Assembly: GCA_009773315.1 (NCBI GenBank)
Contig: WRPE01000004.1
Coordinates: 1 to 64,000, forward strand
Direction: 5' to 3'
DNA length: 64,000 nt
From: Syntrophaceae bacterium
GTDB taxonomy: Bacteria; Desulfobacterota; Syntrophia; Syntrophales; Smithellaceae
Of the stretch, positions 32,604 to 43,226 are shown piece after piece. The notes beneath the pieces are model-generated. The model saw only the letters and a list, made by a program, of their open reading frames with translations, ran no database searches and was not told the DNA's origin. The translations under genes and the position numbers were made by a program. Each line of letters opens with the position of its first letter. The first letter of the stretch is position 1.

Positions 32604-33189
32604 ATTTATTGACAACAACGCTCAGTTTGGGTAATAAAAGCTCATGCCAAGATCAGCAAGGATAGCGCCGAAAGAATTTGTCTATCATGCCCTGACCAGA
32701 GGAAATAATAAGCAGGATGTGTTTAAAGATGACGAAGATTTCAGAAAATACATCGAAATACTCTGGAAGTATAAGAATCAATACAAGTTTAAGCTGTATC
32801 ACTATGTTTTGATGTCCAACCATGTCCATCTGGTAATGGAAACCACACAAGAGGGTGGCGAGTTATTCCAGATCATGAAAGGGATCAACCTCTCCTATGC
32901 CCAACAGTACAAAAAGAAATACATTTATACAGGTCACTTCTGGCAGGACAGGTATAAGAGCATCATGATTTCCAAAGACGAGTATCTTCTGGCCTGCGGC
33001 AGCTACGTGGAATTGAACCCTGTTCGTGCCGGGATGGTGAAAAACCCGAAGGATTATCCATGGAGCAGTTACGGGGTCAATGCTTACGGGAAAAAAGATG
33101 ATTTAATCGATCAGCACATTATCTTTCATAAACTTTCGACGGACGAATCGGTTAGAAAAGAAGTCAGATGCTGAAAATAAATAGAACCG
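32597..33189 (+). mobile_element. RAYT/REP element unit with 14-bp inverted ends
   Basis: CGGTTCTATTTATT (32597-32610) is the exact reverse complement of AATAAATAGAACCG (33176-33189). They flank the RAYT gene (32644-33174). Target-site duplication was not seen. The left end is embedded in the second 22-base repeat, while the right end continues into CGTCCC, an imperfect copy of the CGTCCCC of the left repeat. Confidence 0.7.
32644..33174 (+). CDS. REP-associated tyrosine transposase (RAYT; IS200-like Y1)
   Basis: This 176-residue protein begins MPRSARIAPKEFVYHALTRGNN and has the HUH motif MSNHVHLVM (near residue 60), where His and His bind a divalent metal. YIYTGHFWQDRYKSIMI follows, then SYVELNPVRAGMVKNPKDYPWSSY, the signature of the RAYT subgroup of IS200/IS605 enzymes. 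The catalytic Tyr is not assigned with certainty; DEYLLACGSYVELNP offers two candidates. RAYTs recognise REP hairpins rather than carry classic insertion-sequence ends. Matching inverted ends and tandem repeats around it fit a small non-autonomous repeat family of the host. Confidence 0.88.
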   Translation: MPRSARIAPKEFVYHALTRGNNKQDVFKDDEDFRKYIEILWKYKNQYKFKLYHYVLMSNHVHLVMETTQEGGELFQIMKGINLSYAQQYKKKYIYTGHFWQDRYKSIMISKDEYLLACGSYVELNPVRAGMVKNPKDYPWSSYGVNAYGKKDDLIDQHIIFHKLSTDESVRKEVRC

Positions 33190-35510: not shown

Positions 35511-37034
35511 TCAATTTTTACTAAAGCGCCTTCCGTAATCGATCCCGAGTTTGGACATTCTTTTTCTCAGCGTGCTGGGATTGACCCCGAGCAGTTGCGC
35601 TGCGCCATCGGGTCCGTGAACTCTGCCGCGCGTCGACTCAAGCACTTTTCTGATGTGGCTCGCAACGACCGCGTCTAAATTTGTTGATTCTTCACCAGCC
35701 CCTGACGGGCGGGTGTTCCTGTCCGATTTCTTCGGGATAAGCGCATCGGCAACGACCAGTGGTTCTCCTCTGTTCAAAATCAGGGCGCGTTCGATGACAT
35801 TCTCCAGCTCCCTTACATTGCCGGGCCAGTCATATTCGAGCAGTCGATTGATGGTTCCGGAGGCTAGCACCGGCTGCCGGGCAAGCTTCATATCCCGGGA
35901 TTTCTTAAGCAGGAAGTAATCGACAAACTCGGGAATGTCGGATTTTCTCTCCCGCAGCGGTGGGATAAGAATGGGAAAGACGTTCAGGCGAAACCACAGG
36001 TCCCGGCGAAACCGGTTTTCCCGCGCCATGTCCTCCAGGTTTCTGTTCGTGGCCGTAATCAAGCGGATGTCCACCGGCACCGCTTTTGAGCCGCCTACCC
36101 TTTCAATCTCTTTTTCCTGCAGCACACGCAGCATCCGGACCTGAGCCTGAGGGAGGAGCTCGCCCACTTCGTCGAGAAAAATCGTCCCTCCGTGGGCGCG
36201 CTCGAAACGTCCCCTCTTCTGACCATCCGCTCCGGTGAAGGCGCCCTTTTCATGTCCGAATAGTTCGCTGTCCAGAAGCGTATCGGGAATGGCGCCGCAA
36301 TTCACTTTGATGAAGGATCCGCCCCTGCGCTGGGAGACATAATGGATGGCATTGGCGATCACGTCCTTGCCCGCGCCGGTTTCCCCCAGAAGCAGCACGG
36401 GGCTGGTAAGCGGCGCAACCTGCCGGACCATCGCCATAATATCTTTCAATCCGGAGTTCTCGCCGATGATTTTGTCGCCATAGATATCCCGCAGCTCTTT
36501 CTGCAGATAGCGGTTGTCATCCGCCAGCCGGTCTTTGAGATTGGACAGCTCGCGATGTTTCAAAGCATTGTCCAGCGCGATGGTAAAGGGTTCGGCGACC
36601 AGCGACAGCAAGTGCGCATGATCCTCACGATATTTGTTTTTACCATCGGCCCGCATCGACAAGGCGCCGCCCCTGTCCTCGGCCATCATCAGATAAAGAA
36701 GCATCACGGAAGAGTCCGACGGTTTTCCCCGGCGTATCATTGTTTTGATGAGAAGATCGCGCTCCGGATGATTGATGATCTTTACCGTCTCCGGCGACTC
36801 TTCCAATTTTCCAAGCAGGGGGGTGACTTTATCGACGGCAAAGCTTCCGGAAGCGCTGACGCGGGCGATGGTGCGCATAGCGCCAAGCCCCGGCTCATAA
36901 AGATGGAGCCCCATGGCATCAAGCGGAATGAATTCCCGCAAATACTCAAAAGCCCTGGCCAGGGCCGTCTTGATATCCAGCGAGCCGCATACTCTTGTGG
37001 TCACTTCCCTGAAAAAAACGTTTTCATCGATCAT
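35511..37034 (-). CDS. Sigma-54-dependent transcriptional activator (GAF-AAA+-Fis HTH)
   Basis: This 507-residue enhancer-binding protein has an N-terminal GAF-like sensory domain (about 1-165), a short linker, and an AAA+ domain from about 190. That domain has Walker A GETGAGKD (217-224), GAFTGA at 264-269 (the sigma-54 contact loop), GGTIFLDEVGEL Walker B, ITATNRNLE, and FRRDLWFRLNVFPI. The C-terminal HTH is Fis-type (GAAQLLGVNPSTLRKRMSKLGI). The ATG at 37034 is used: GGAGG lies six bases upstream. The longer frame to 37163 includes the operator repeats translated as PM-x-Q runs and is rejected. It diverges from a flavoprotein operon; the dyads between them suggest it controls that operon and itself. 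Confidence 0.9.
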   Translation of the reverse strand: MIDENVFFREVTTRVCGSLDIKTALARAFEYLREFIPLDAMGLHLYEPGLGAMRTIARVSASGSFAVDKVTPLLGKLEESPETVKIINHPERDLLIKTMIRRGKPSDSSVMLLYLMMAEDRGGALSMRADGKNKYREDHAHLLSLVAEPFTIALDNALKHRELSNLKDRLADDNRYLQKELRDIYGDKIIGENSGLKDIMAMVRQVAPLTSPVLLLGETGAGKDVIANAIHYVSQRRGGSFIKVNCGAIPDTLLDSELFGHEKGAFTGADGQKRGRFERAHGGTIFLDEVGELLPQAQVRMLRVLQEKEIERVGGSKAVPVDIRLITATNRNLEDMARENRFRRDLWFRLNVFPILIPPLRERKSDIPEFVDYFLLKKSRDMKLARQPVLASGTINRLLEYDWPGNVRELENVIERALILNRGEPLVVADALIPKKSDRNTRPSGAGEESTNLDAVVASHIRKVLESTRGRVHGPDGAAQLLGVNPSTLRKRMSKLGIDYGRRFSKN

Positions 37035-37103
37035 CCTGGTCCTCCGCACATGGAAATGCATCCGCCCTTCCGGGAGGATTAATCGTTTAGTCTTTATCAC
37101 GGC

Positions 37104-37163
37104 TTGCCCCATTGGGCAATTTTTTTGCTCCATAGGACAATAATTTATTGCACCATAGGGCAA
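37104..37163. promoter_or_regulatory. Three tandem dyad operator/UAS sites for the sigma-54 activator
   Basis: Dyads with consensus TTGCNC-CATW-GGRCAA occur at 37104-37119 (perfect 6-4-6 palindrome), 37125-37140 and 37148-37163 (5 of 6 pairs). Their centres are 21 and 23 bp apart, about two helical turns. They lie 52-111 bp upstream of the -24 GG at 37215, as expected for upstream activating sequences. Confidence 0.75.
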
Positions 37164-37213
37164 TTGGCGGAATGAAAATCAACAAACATTCTGGAATGAC
37201 TTGATTTTTATTA

Positions 37214-37228
37214 TGGCATGGATATCGC
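37214..37228 (+). promoter_or_regulatory. Sigma-54 (-24/-12) promoter
   Basis: TGGCATGGATATCGC has GG at 37215-37216 and GC at 37227-37228 with exactly ten bases between, matching the GG-N10-GC rule. Transcription would start near 37240 and run into the operon from 37431, leaving a leader of about 190 bases. Confidence 0.7.
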
Positions 37229-37250
37229 TAGTATTCCGCCAATGAAGTAA

Positions 37251-37334
37251 TGTCATTTCGACCCTCATTCTGGGGGCAAGACCGCAGGAAGAAATCTAAG
37301 ATTTCTCAGTCGTCAAAACTCCTTCGAAATGACA
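37251..37334. repeat. Palindromic MITE-like element in the operon leader
   Basis: The outer arms TGTCATTTCGA (37251-37261) and TCGAAATGACA (37324-37334) are exact reverse complements. Inside, GAAATCTAAGATTTC (37291-37305) forms another dyad. Such TGTCATTTCGA-ended palindromes occur as dispersed repeats in many genomes. It would form a long hairpin in the leader RNA. Confidence 0.75.
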
Positions 37335-37430
37335 GTGTTGACATGACACTAGTGTAGTGCGACGTAAATTCCTTTACATCGGTTCAGCAGCTCAGACTAT
37401 AGAACAAGAGAAAGCTTTCAAGGAGGGAAC

Positions 37431-40145
37431 ATGTCGTCATCACATGCAAAAGAAGGAAGAGATCTCACCAAACACAATTCCGTTTTTGACGCCGTGGTTG
37501 TCGGCGCCGGAAACGGCGGACTGACCGGCGCGCTGACCCTGTGCAAGGCGGGTAAAAAAGTCCTTCTGCTGGAAAGGCACAACATCCCCGGCGGCTGCGG
37601 CACGACCTTTCGGCGCGGCCGCTTTGAATTCGAAGTTGCGCTGCACCAGCTCTACGACATCAGCAACAATTACCGCGGTGAAAAAGGGTCGCTGCGCAGA
37701 CTCTTCGAAGAACTGAACGTATGGAACAAGATCGAATTCGTTTTGCAAAAAGAAGCCTTTCGCCTGGCGATTCCGGGCGTGGGTGAAATTGTATTGCCCG
37801 GCGACCATGACGGTTTTGTCCGAAAGATCCAGGAGATCGCCCCGGATCACGCCGACGCCATCCGCGAATACCAGGCCCTGGTCGACAAAATAGGAGAAGA
37901 AACAGCGCTCCTGTATAAAAGCGTCGCCGAAGACGAGCCGCTGACCAAAGAAAAAGCACCCATTATCTTTGAGTTCGGCTCGCTGACCGGCAAGGAGGTG
38001 CTGGACAGGTATTTTAAAAACTCCATTGTGAAAGGGATCTACAAGGCGCTCTTCGGTTACCTGGGCATGCCGGTGGATCGTGTCCCGTTTCTGGCCCTGG
38101 CCGCACTGTATGCGCGAGGCGACGGCACCTGTTATGTTAAGGGCGGTTCCCAGGCCATGTCCAACGCCCTCGCCGATGAATTCCTGGCATCGGGCGGGAC
38201 CATCAAATTCAACACCGCCGTAGAAAAGATTTTAGTGGAGGACGGTGCCGTCAGAGGCGTAATGACGGATGCGGGCGAAAGCTTCAAAACGGATACGGTT
38301 CTTTGCAACGCCAACAAGATCAATGTTTACGTGGACATGATTGAGGAACAACACGTTCCCGAAAGCGTTTTTGCGGATCTGCGCGTTTCTACCCCCAGCA
38401 TGTCGTCGTTCGGACTTTTTATCGGTCTCGACTGCACGGCAGAAGAAGCGGGCATTAGAAATGCCACCAGCTTTATGGCCGCGCCGCTCAACGCGCCGCG
38501 GATGCGTTACGATGTTGGTCTGCATCAAACCAGCGTCATCCCGGGCGGCTACATGTCCTGCTACAGCATTGACGATCCCGACTGCAGCCCGGAGGGAACC
38601 AGCATGCTCACGATTCTCTCCAGCCAAACCGCCGATTCGTGGATCAGCCTGCCGCCCGAAAAATACCACGAAGCAAAGATGCAGTACGCCACCAAGCTGC
38701 TGGACTTCCTGTATCAGTTTTATCCGAAAATCCGCGGGCACATTGAAGAGATGGAAGCCTTCACCCCGCTTACGCTGATGCGGTATATCAATTCGCCCGG
38801 CGGCTGCATCTACGGCGTGGACGCGTATTTTAAGGATCTCGTCGCCAATAAGATGCAGGCTCGCTCCCCCATTAAGGGACTCTATTTCTGCGGAGCGTCA
38901 TTGCTCTTCGGCGGTTTCAACACCACGCTTACGTCCGGCCATACGGCGGCGAGACTGATCCTGAAAGACCAGACAAAAAACGAAGCACAAGGCCGGGCAG
39001 GCTTTGAGGGTCTGGCCGGGCTGGATTCGATTCAAAAAGAAATTGAAGTCGGCAAACGATACAATCTCGATCACCGGTGCAACCGCGGCGGCATTAAGCG
39101 GGCATTGGACGTCCTGCATCCCAAGCGCATCGAGTACCGCGTTACGGAAATCCGCAGGGAGACGGACAGCGCCAGAACGATCCGCCTCGCGCCGACAGGC
39201 GGATACCTTCCGCCGTTTGTTCCCGGCCAGTACATCAATCTTGAAGTGGAGATTGACGGCATTCGCACCAGCCGGCCCTACAGTATTTCTTCGCCCGCCA
39301 CCCAGCGTGCCTGCTACGAAATCACCGTTCGTTCCGCCAGGAACGGCTTCGTCTCGGACTACCTGCTTGGCTCCTTGAAGGTCGGCGATCTCGTCTCCAG
39401 TTCGGGACCTGCGGGTAATTTCTACAGGATTCCTGACGTACACGGCAAAAGACTGGTCTTTATCGCCGGTGGGTCGGGCATCACTCCCTTTATGAGCATG
39501 CTGCAAACCGATGCTGATAAATTAGACCGCGGCTGCCGGATTGATCTCATCTATGGCTGCGCCCGGGAACAGGACATTATTTTCAAAACAAGGCTACGCA
39601 AGCTGGAGAAGGCCGGTTTCGTCAAAACACATCCGGTCATTTCGGAACCCGGGGCAGACTGCCGCGAGCGTCAGGGATTTGTAACCGCGGACATTATTAA
39701 GGATGTCGCGGGAGACATCACACAATGCACCTTCTTTCTTAGCGGCCCCACCGCCATGTATGATTTTGTCCTGCCCGAGCTTCAAAAGCTGGGGGTTTCG
39801 GATCGGCAAATCCGTCGCGAGGTCCAGACGGCGTCGGACGATGCAACGAAACTGCCGGGCTGGCCTCAAGGCATCAGCGGCAAAGATCAATTTACCGTAT
39901 CGCTGCCGGATGGCCGCAAGCTTGCCGCAACGGCCTGCGAAACCGTCCTTGTCGCTCTGGAAAGAGCAGGCGTCACTGTGCCGTCGCTATGCCGCGGCGG
40001 TGAATGCAGCGCCTGCCGCACCAAGCTGCGCTCGGGTAGAGTTTTTCACCCGCCATCCGAACTTTTACGCAAATCGGACATGAGATTCGGCTACATTCAT
40101 CCCTGCGTCACCTATCCGATCAGCAACATTGAAATTATGCTGTAA
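37431..40145 (+). CDS. FAD-dependent desaturase/isomerase fused to FNR and 2Fe-2S ferredoxin
   Basis: This is a 904-residue three-part fusion. Residues 1-510 form a phytoene-desaturase/carotenoid-isomerase/retinol-saturase-like FAD protein (VVVGAGNGGLTGAL; LLERHNIPGGCGTTF; the C-terminal FCGASLLFGGFNTTLTSG). About 563-800 is a ferredoxin-NAD(P) reductase domain (RPYSISSP for FAD, GGSGITPFMSML for NAD(P), FLSGPTAMYDF near the end). About 815-904 is a plant-type 2Fe-2S ferredoxin with C854-x4-C859-x2-C862-x29-C892. Electrons would pass between NAD(P)H, FAD, the 2Fe-2S cluster and the desaturase FAD, reducing or oxidising a C=C bond. AAGGAGGGAAC precedes the ATG. It is first in a sigma-54 operon with a dienoyl-CoA-reductase-like protein and a crotonase. 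Substrate is unknown. Confidence 0.8.
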   Translation: MSSSHAKEGRDLTKHNSVFDAVVVGAGNGGLTGALTLCKAGKKVLLLERHNIPGGCGTTFRRGRFEFEVALHQLYDISNNYRGEKGSLRRLFEELNVWNKIEFVLQKEAFRLAIPGVGEIVLPGDHDGFVRKIQEIAPDHADAIREYQALVDKIGEETALLYKSVAEDEPLTKEKAPIIFEFGSLTGKEVLDRYFKNSIVKGIYKALFGYLGMPVDRVPFLALAALYARGDGTCYVKGGSQAMSNALADEFLASGGTIKFNTAVEKILVEDGAVRGVMTDAGESFKTDTVLCNANKINVYVDMIEEQHVPESVFADLRVSTPSMSSFGLFIGLDCTAEEAGIRNATSFMAAPLNAPRMRYDVGLHQTSVIPGGYMSCYSIDDPDCSPEGTSMLTILSSQTADSWISLPPEKYHEAKMQYATKLLDFLYQFYPKIRGHIEEMEAFTPLTLMRYINSPGGCIYGVDAYFKDLVANKMQARSPIKGLYFCGASLLFGGFNTTLTSGHTAARLILKDQTKNEAQGRAGFEGLAGLDSIQKEIEVGKRYNLDHRCNRGGIKRALDVLHPKRIEYRVTEIRRETDSARTIRLAPTGGYLPPFVPGQYINLEVEIDGIRTSRPYSISSPATQRACYEITVRSARNGFVSDYLLGSLKVGDLVSSSGPAGNFYRIPDVHGKRLVFIAGGSGITPFMSMLQTDADKLDRGCRIDLIYGCAREQDIIFKTRLRKLEKAGFVKTHPVISEPGADCRERQGFVTADIIKDVAGDITQCTFFLSGPTAMYDFVLPELQKLGVSDRQIRREVQTASDDATKLPGWPQGISGKDQFTVSLPDGRKLAATACETVLVALERAGVTVPSLCRGGECSACRTKLRSGRVFHPPSELLRKSDMRFGYIHPCVTYPISNIEIML

Positions 40146-40172: not shown

Positions 40173-42230
40173 ATGGAGTTTTTGAACAGATCATCGCAAC
40201 CGAATTCAGACAAAGATAAACCGGCTCAAAAAAATGATATCCTTTTTTCACCCCTCACCATCAACAAGATGGTCGTCCCCAATCGCATTCTGATGCCGGC
40301 CATGCACCTCAACATGGTTAAGACACCGTATATCAACGATCGGATCATCGCCTTCTACGCCGCTCGGGCGCGCGGAGGAGCCGGCGCCTTGATTGCCGGC
40401 TATGCCGGCGTCAATAAATCTTCCGGCGGCGGCGTCATCGGCGCGTATGCCGATGATTTCATCGAGGGGCTGTCGCATTTGCGAGAAGCCATGCAACTGG
40501 GCGGCGGAAAAGCGGGCCTGCAACTGAACCACGCGGGTCGATACGCCCATTCCATCATGATGGAAGGAGAGCAGGCCGTGGCGCCATCCGCCGTCTTCTC
40601 CAATTTTACACATGAAACGCCGCGGGCGTTGGAATTGGAAGAAATCAAACAGACGATCCAGGATTTCGCCGATGCGGCCGTTCGAACGAAAAAAGCGGGA
40701 TTTGATTTTGTCGAGATCCTGGCCGGGACGGGCTATCTCATCAGCCAATTTCTATCCGACCTGACGAATCAGCGGGATGACGAATATGGCGGGCCGTGGA
40801 AAAACCGCATGCGCTTCGGACTGGAAATCGCTTCCGCCGTCCGCAAGGCCGTGGGAAGCGACTATCCGGTGATGTGGCGGATCAATGGCAATGATTTGAT
40901 GGTCAACGGGATCGGAAGAATCCGCCTTCAGGAATACGCCGCGCTGATCGTTAAAAACGGCGCAGATGCCATCTCCGTAAATGTTGGGTGGCATGAAGCA
41001 CGGGTGCCGCAGCTCGTCACGGAAGTGCCGCGCGCCGCCTATGCTTATCTGGCCCGGGGAATCAAGGAATGCGTCGACGTTCCGGTCATAGCCGGACACC
41101 GCATCAACGATCCGCAAACGGCCCGCCAAATGATCGAGGACGACCTCTGCGACATGGTGGCTATGGGCCGGCCGCTGATTGCCGATCCCGACCTGCCGAA
41201 AAAGACAGCCGAAAACAGAGAAAACGAAATCATTCACTGCATCGCCTGCGCTCAGGGATGTTTCGATCACCTCTTCGTGGTGCAGCCCGTGGAGTGCCTG
41301 TGCAACCCCGAGGCAGGGCATGAACTCACGGCCGTTTCCAGCAAAACGGATACCCCGAAGAAAATCCTCGTCTGCGGGGGCGGCCCCGCGGGAATGGCCG
41401 CTGCAGCCGCGGCGGCACGGCGCGGTCATGATGTTGTGCTGTATGAAAGAAGCGGACAACTCGGCGGACAACTGCTGATCGCCGGAAGTCCTCCCGGCCG
41501 CGAAGAATTTACTGTACTGGCGTCGGATCTGCAGGCCCAACTGGAACCGAGCGGCGTAAAAAAAGTGGTCCTCGGCGAAGAAGTGAATGAAGACATCATC
41601 GCCAGGGAAAAACCGGATATTGCTCTATTGGCAACCGGTGCTGTGGAAATTGTACCGAACATTCCGGGCGCCACGCTCCCTCATGTGGTGAGCGCCTGGG
41701 ACGTTTTGGCCGGGCGGGTTGGGACCGGAAAGAGCGTTGCGATCATCGGCGGCGGCGCGGTCGGCGTGGAAACGGCGATCTTTCTGGCTCAGAAGGGCAC
41801 CTTGCCTGCCGGTTCCCTTAAATTTCTTTTTATCAACCGGGCGGAGCCCGTCGAGGATCTCTACCGGCTCTCAACGATCGGAACCAAGAAAGTTGTCATC
41901 ATCGAGATGCTCGAACACATCGGCGCGGATATCGGAAAGTCAACAAGGTGGGGGATGATGCAGGATATGCACCGCCATCGCGTGCGGATCAAGACAAACA
42001 CGAGGGCGAAGGAAATTACGCCGGCCGGTGTTATTGCCGAAACCGCAGACGGCATGCAGGAAATTCCCGCTGACACCATTGTGCTGGCCCTGGGATCCAG
42101 ATCATACAATCCGCTCGCGGAAATATTCAAGAAAAAGGGCATTCCTTATCGGGTTATCGGCGATGCCCGACAGATCGCCAAAGCGTTTGACGCTATTCAC
42201 GAAGGGCATCACGTCGCTTGTGCAATATAA
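40173..42230 (+). CDS. 2,4-dienoyl-CoA reductase-like FMN/FAD/4Fe-4S oxidoreductase
   Basis: This 685-residue protein has an Old Yellow Enzyme FMN barrel (about 1-345, with VVPNRILMPAMH, LQLNHAGRYAH, GFDFVEILAGTGYLISQFLSDLTNQRDDEYGG). A 4Fe-4S motif CIACAQGCFDH with a further Cys (about 357-375) links to the FAD/NAD(P) half (CGGGPAGMAAAAAAARRG; IIGGGAVGVETAIFLAQ). The family includes FadH, BaiCD/H and enoate reductases, which reduce conjugated C=C bonds of acyl-CoAs with NAD(P)H. The start has CGGAGG eight bases upstream and is 27 bases after the fusion gene. Normal FadH-like length is about 670. The order in this operon suggests it follows or precedes the desaturase-like step on the same compound. 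Confidence 0.85.
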   Translation: MEFLNRSSQPNSDKDKPAQKNDILFSPLTINKMVVPNRILMPAMHLNMVKTPYINDRIIAFYAARARGGAGALIAGYAGVNKSSGGGVIGAYADDFIEGLSHLREAMQLGGGKAGLQLNHAGRYAHSIMMEGEQAVAPSAVFSNFTHETPRALELEEIKQTIQDFADAAVRTKKAGFDFVEILAGTGYLISQFLSDLTNQRDDEYGGPWKNRMRFGLEIASAVRKAVGSDYPVMWRINGNDLMVNGIGRIRLQEYAALIVKNGADAISVNVGWHEARVPQLVTEVPRAAYAYLARGIKECVDVPVIAGHRINDPQTARQMIEDDLCDMVAMGRPLIADPDLPKKTAENRENEIIHCIACAQGCFDHLFVVQPVECLCNPEAGHELTAVSSKTDTPKKILVCGGGPAGMAAAAAAARRGHDVVLYERSGQLGGQLLIAGSPPGREEFTVLASDLQAQLEPSGVKKVVLGEEVNEDIIAREKPDIALLATGAVEIVPNIPGATLPHVVSAWDVLAGRVGTGKSVAIIGGGAVGVETAIFLAQKGTLPAGSLKFLFINRAEPVEDLYRLSTIGTKKVVIIEMLEHIGADIGKSTRWGMMQDMHRHRVRIKTNTRAKEITPAGVIAETADGMQEIPADTIVLALGSRSYNPLAEIFKKKGIPYRVIGDARQIAKAFDAIHEGHHVACAI

Positions 42231-42422: not shown

Positions 42423-43226
42423 ATGAATGAACTGGTGAAGATTACAATCGGAAACAACGTAGCGGATGTCCGTTTTAACAGGCCCGAAAAATACAACGCC
42501 TTGAGCTTTGATATGATTGATGCCATGGCCAACGCCATTAACCGACTGGCCAAGGAACCCGGGGTCCGGGTTGTTGTCATCTCCGGCGAGGGCAAGAGCT
42601 TCTGCGCCGGGCTGGATGTTGAAAATTTTGCGGCCCTGCAATCCGGAGAAAATAAGTTTCCTAATCTTACGGATCGATACCAAAACCGGATTTCCAATAT
42701 CTATCAGCATATCGGATATGGGTGGAAAGAGCTTCCCGTGCCGGTGATTGCGGCCATTCACGGCGTAGCGCTGGGCGGCGGTTTTCAGATCGCCATGGGG
42801 GCGGACATTCGGTTCAGCACACCCGACGCCAAATTCTCGCTCATGGAAATGAAATGGGGATTGATTCCGGATATGAGCGTGACCCAGACCATCCGTGATA
42901 TCGTGTCGATTGACGTGGCCAAGGAACTGATCTTTACGGGTAAAATCATCAAAGGCGAAGAAGCGGCCCGCTTGAATCTGGTGACGCACATCTGTGAAAA
43001 ACCCTATGACGACGCCATGACCCTGGCCCGGGAAATCGCCTCCAAAAATCCCGATGCCGTGCGCGCGGCGAAAAAACTCATCAACGAAGTATGGCATGGC
43101 GACTCAGGCCGCGGCCTGATGATGGAATCCGAACTGATGATGGCGCTCATGGGAAGTCCAAACCAACTGGAGGCGGTTGCCGCAAACTTTACTCAGAATC
43201 CGCCTAAGTTCAAGGACCCGGTGTGA
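42423..43226 (+). CDS. Enoyl-CoA hydratase/isomerase (crotonase family)
   Basis: This 267-residue protein hydrates or isomerises an enoyl-CoA. The oxyanion-hole regions GKSFCAGLDVENFA and IHGVALGGGFQIAMGADIRF are clear (first and second backbone NH donors). The Glu/Asp pair is less standard: KFSLMEMKWGLIPDM carries a Glu in the position used by hydratases or isomerases. The start follows AAGGAAAAATC. It is 193 bases behind the dienoyl-CoA-reductase gene and likely the third gene of the sigma-54 operon, although an internal promoter in that gap is possible. Its exact reaction (hydratase, isomerase or ring hydrolase) is unresolved. Confidence 0.85.
   Translation: MNELVKITIGNNVADVRFNRPEKYNALSFDMIDAMANAINRLAKEPGVRVVVISGEGKSFCAGLDVENFAALQSGENKFPNLTDRYQNRISNIYQHIGYGWKELPVPVIAAIHGVALGGGFQIAMGADIRFSTPDAKFSLMEMKWGLIPDMSVTQTIRDIVSIDVAKELIFTGKIIKGEEAARLNLVTHICEKPYDDAMTLAREIASKNPDAVRAAKKLINEVWHGDSGRGLMMESELMMALMGSPNQLEAVAANFTQNPPKFKDPV

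Follow-up and report, generated by a model that had tools for sequence, protein, structure and literature searches.

The intergenic region at 37035–37430 of the window (the whole stretch of DNA analyzed here, 64,000 nucleotides) separates a minus-strand activator gene from a plus-strand flavoprotein operon, and its sequence features identify it, with a probability that we put at about 0.9, as the regulatory element of a sigma-54 switch of the one-component type, in which the activator would act on three tandem dyads to drive the divergent operon (Table 1). A preliminary description had read the region as a sigma-54 control region with the two transcription units divergent, and both points held: the dyads, their spacing, and the promoter are kept together at orthologous loci, the activator possesses the expected domains in a genome with a single RpoN, and the tandem dyads are limited to genomes with a close activator orthologue, their core following a recognition-helix residue of that protein.

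Table 1. Features of the control region and the flanking genes (window coordinates)
Feature	Position	Strand	Description
Activator gene	35511..37034	-	507 aa; GAF ~1-159, AAA+, Fis-type HTH
Dyad 1	37104..37119	+	TTGCCCCATTGGGCAA; centre ~-128.5 from predicted start point
Dyad 2	37125..37140	+	TTGCTCCATAGGACAA; centre ~-107.5 from predicted start point
Dyad 3	37148..37163	+	TTGCACCATAGGGCAA; centre ~-84.5 from predicted start point
Sigma-54 -24/-12 promoter	37214..37229	+	TGGCATGGATATCGCT; GG 37215-37216, N10, GC 37227-37228
MITE-like repeat	37251..37334		In operon leader; 11-bp terminal inverted repeats TGTCATTTCGA
Operon gene 1	37431..40145	+	904 aa; carotenoid-isomerase/phytoene-desaturase-like FAD domain + ferredoxin reductase + 2Fe-2S domain
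Operon gene 2	40173..42230	+	685 aa; old-yellow-enzyme/BaiCD-like enoate reductase
Enoyl-CoA hydratase family gene	42423..43226	+	Preceded by 192-bp gap; order kept in G004

The three 16-bp dyads were found exactly at the coordinates first claimed for them, with start-to-start spacings of 21 and 23 bp, in agreement with the proposed separation of about two helical turns. Palindromy at the outer pairs was 6/6 for dyad 1 and 5/6 for dyad 3, and was weaker (4/6) for dyad 2. When similar dyads were defined as being at least 12/16 identical pairwise and 18 to 26 bp apart, the triple occurred only once in the window, and neither 20,000 shuffled versions of the intergenic sequence nor 1.28 Mb of shuffled window produced one. 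Several inverted repeats thus lie on one DNA face about 80 to 150 bp upstream of the predicted start point, as is typical of an enhancer.

The promoter had previously been placed at 37214–37228; its GG-N10-GC arrangement was borne out, but the element extends over 37214–37229 with the GG starting at 37215. It scored 11/13 against the consensus TGGCAC-N5-TTGCW, with both GG and GC there. Since this score was reached 5 times in the window versus 5.6 times in shuffles, the promoter alone is at chance level, and it is significant because it is conserved at three orthologous loci, not by its own score. Transcription of the flavoprotein operon is predicted to start around 37240, about 190 nt before the first operon gene. 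No clear IHF site was detected in the interval between dyads and promoter, where a single 1-mismatch match occurred at about the chance rate; the stability of leader RNA structure was not above that of shuffles (z = -0.44), and an Rfam search of the window gave no match. The MITE-like repeat in the leader has two more copies in the genome (C35 and C21) and is missing at this place in the related genomes G004 and G015. A perfect 11-bp inverted repeat (ATTGGCGGAAT/ATTCCGCCAAT, 37163–37173 and 37233–37243) flanks the promoter; G004 has nearly retained the left arm and has not retained the right one.

For the activator gene, the start called by the ORF program at 37163 was rejected as spurious in favor of the ATG at 37034, which is preceded by GGAGG and lies 70 bp from dyad 1. 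Pfam matches of the protein comprised the sigma-54 interaction domain (PF00158, E = 3e-67), the AAA+ lid, and the Fis HTH, with the HTH_8 match above its own cut-off, and the GAFTGA motif at residues 264–269 was invariant in 38 aligned homologues. In AlphaFold models, residues 1–159 adopt a GAF fold and residues 486–496, including Lys491, form the recognition helix of the HTH; the Pfam search gave no GAF match for the activator, and structural comparison of its N-terminus with 3k2n, the GAF domain of a sigma-54 regulator, yielded a Z score of 14.4 and an rmsd of 3.0 over 154 residues. The protein therefore possesses the AAA+ domain with GAFTGA and the C-terminal Fis-type HTH of bacterial enhancer-binding proteins, together with the regulatory N-terminal domain that is optional among them. 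Besides one RpoN, the genome encodes some 19 strong sigma-54 interaction domains.

The activator scored below the NCBIfam cut-offs for the NorR equivalog NF003451 (311.7 versus 476), for NifA TIGR01817 (358.3 versus 528.85), and for NtrC (282 versus 558.6). NtrC and NifA have the same AAA+ and HTH architecture, and their -24/-12 promoters are preceded by an enhancer. An N-terminal GAF domain is present in NifA as well, and the operators of both regulators differ from the dyads here. The layout is a well-known kind of sigma-54 switch and is NorR-like: the NorR-norVW system of Escherichia coli likewise combines a GAF-AAA+-Fis HTH activator with three tandem enhancer sites and a sigma-54 promoter, and just one target operon of NorR is known in E. 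coli, as one target was found here, whereas the site sequence and the target genes are different and the activator falls under the NorR cut-off. The three enhancer sites of NorR are essential for activation and scaffold its oligomer (PMC2941729, PMC4601167). Similarly, the genes of one-component sigma-54 regulators in Desulfovibrio vulgaris are co-localized with sigma-54 promoters, their sites having been predicted by comparative genomics, their regulons comprising one to four operons, and EMSA having served to assign one of them, DVU2956, at a divergent promoter (PMC4641369); unlike the system here, these involve other activators and other motifs.

We infer a mechanism in which activator dimers would bind the three dyads via the C-terminal HTH, and three dimers at three sites on one DNA face would nucleate the AAA+ ring (a hexamer), as in NorR. 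The GAF domain would gate this ring upon sensing a signal, probably one tied to the redox or enoyl-CoA substrates of the operon. With the intervening DNA looped out, the GAFTGA loop would touch the sigma-54 RNA polymerase waiting at 37214–37229, and ATP hydrolysis would open the promoter, such that the flavoprotein operon would be transcribed in a sigma-54-dependent manner from the predicted start point.

Activator orthologues were identified in three other genomes of the same order, G004 (94% identity, partial), G015 (88%), and G069 (79–81%), the last of which belongs to another family. Tandem dyads at 21 to 23 bp were present at each locus (three in G004, three in G015, and two in G069), together with a sigma-54 promoter at the same dyad-to-promoter distance. 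Dyad 3 is the best conserved of the three, dyad 2 is kept in all three genomes, and dyad 1 is kept in G004 and G015 and degenerate in G069. Identity was higher within than between sites in G015 (0.80 versus 0.63) and G069 (0.74 versus 0.50), and in the nearest relative, G004, it did not differ (0.83 versus 0.84). Of 155 genomes in the order, exactly 4 contained the paired-dyad pattern GACAA-N5-7-TTGYNCYATAGGRCAA, each with one occurrence, beside the activator; all four have a close activator orthologue, and the reversed-pattern control gave 0 matches; as the pattern was derived from the same four loci, its presence there is not independent evidence, while its absence elsewhere is.

The survey was then widened to 110 distinct loci of activator homologues (~41–100% identity) from the phylum, and further classes were also sampled, one of them represented by three genomes only. 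A promoter scoring at least 10/13 and reading away from the activator was present at 82 of the 110 loci, versus 5/110 on the other strand. Palindrome centres peaked about 58 to 62 bp upstream of the GG (15 observed versus 1.9 expected; maximum of 6 among 200 shuffles), and this is the position of dyad 3 relative to its promoter. Since palindromy by itself was too noisy a criterion for picking dyads in distant homologues, the analysis relied on core counts and tests of position. At seven loci (L013, L020, L021, L023, L024, L027, and L030), the gene that distant homologues face encodes a small protein beginning like MKWMEEI..., a recurrent, uncharacterized target of the activator family.

While the family regions were being read, an association was noticed between the dyad core CYATRG and Lys491, the residue that follows [SNG]TLR in the recognition helix. 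In the first set, the core was present at 12/13 Lys loci and 1/70 others, and among new loci, under a test fixed beforehand, at 3/3 Lys and 0/34 non-Lys loci, giving 15/16 versus 1/104 in the combined set of about 120 loci; with every locus viewed before the idea removed, the counts were 8/9 and 1/88. Lys491 was by far the best separator among all residues at 22 HTH positions (5e-17 versus 1e-3 for the next). A hypothesis-free hexamer scan by residue returned CCATAG for Lys, GAAATA/ATATCG for Ser, ACATAT for His, and ATAAGG for Asn, each of which beat 60 label shuffles, and no core for Ala or Gly loci. On a kinship tree built without the HTH, the Lys state changes 5 times, of which 3 are forced by supported branches, and the 3 to 5 independent Lys/non-Lys contrasts, none in the opposite direction, are not numerous enough for a sign test to reach significance; the Lys491 loci are in part linked by common descent, and this relatedness is a caveat on the association. 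In a helix alignment made in this analysis, position 491 aligns with Arg427 of LuxO, which is among the residues found critical in that protein (PMC11407668).

These data suggested that one activator residue predicts which dyad sequence is used. On balance, we favor the view that a single recognition-helix residue (Lys491, with Ser, His, and Asn as alternatives) sets the central dyad bases in this family. The code could then read CYATRG for Lys, with the Ser, His, and Asn cores as returned by the scan, and candidate operators for Ser or Asn at position 491 are TTGCGATATGTCGCAA or TTGCCGAATAAGGCAA. If this is true, operators are predictable from protein sequence, and specificity has been rewired repeatedly inside one conserved promoter layout. 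To judge from the searchable literature, the association is probably new to specialists. The code could help assign sites to the many sigma-54 activators found in anaerobic bacteria, for few of which sites are known, and could help explain how many paralogues coexist without cross-talk; a testable predicted operator is now available for this uncharacterized activator.

Because Lys491 predicts the dyad core, the dyads can be tied to the adjacent activator, and this bears on whether they are instead operators of a different regulator, of the FNR/CRP type or a repressor, with the sigma-54 promoter nearby by accident. TTGC...GCAA palindromes do superficially resemble operators of other families, but sites restricted to genomes with a close orthologue and found only beside the activator gene, a core that tracks residue 491 across the family, and dyad centres at -84 to -129, which fit a sigma-54 enhancer, leave this explanation improbable. 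Slightly less probable still is that the dyads mainly autoregulate the activator gene and the sigma-54 promoter is incidental, as might be supposed from their intergenic position close to the activator start. At the G004 locus, over 200 bp of extra, unrelated DNA separates dyads from activator, so that the distance conserved is that from dyads to promoter and not that from dyads to activator, and the region yielded no sigma-70-like site for the activator gene; autoregulation may occur in addition to operon control. That dyad 1 and the adjacent T-run form an intrinsic terminator, the repeats being partly RNA structure, is very nearly dismissed, for although a terminator-like site was called at 37104–37119 followed by T7, no plus-strand gene upstream needs termination, the T-run is missing in G015, and the other two dyads have none.

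The flavoprotein operon is kept at the G004 and G015 loci and possibly ends with the enoyl-CoA hydratase family gene; together with a CoA-transferase pair located beyond the activator gene, its gene content suggests a role in enoyl-CoA or related redox metabolism. The domain fusion in the 904-aa product of operon gene 1 is unusual. In G069, the switch is re-used for a different operon, and thus the target is not fixed; at that locus (L133, G069:C135, 6000–9200), the same activator and dyads face a nitronate-monooxygenase-like gene, with a PHP-domain-like gene nearby.

The preliminary description had also suggested that the site sequence might lead to other target genes, and a pattern search of the genome gave this no support: matches with at most 2 mismatches (10+9) were no commoner than in the reversed control (15+7), and no second target was found. 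Two 1-mismatch matches were considered as second targets and rejected, both being inside genes, one inositol-monophosphatase-like and the other a short ORF resembling ribosomal protein S16. The switch looks local. Near the activator gene, an IS200/Y1-type transposase ORF (Y1_Tnp, 32644–33174) is present, possibly encoding a REP-associated transposase.
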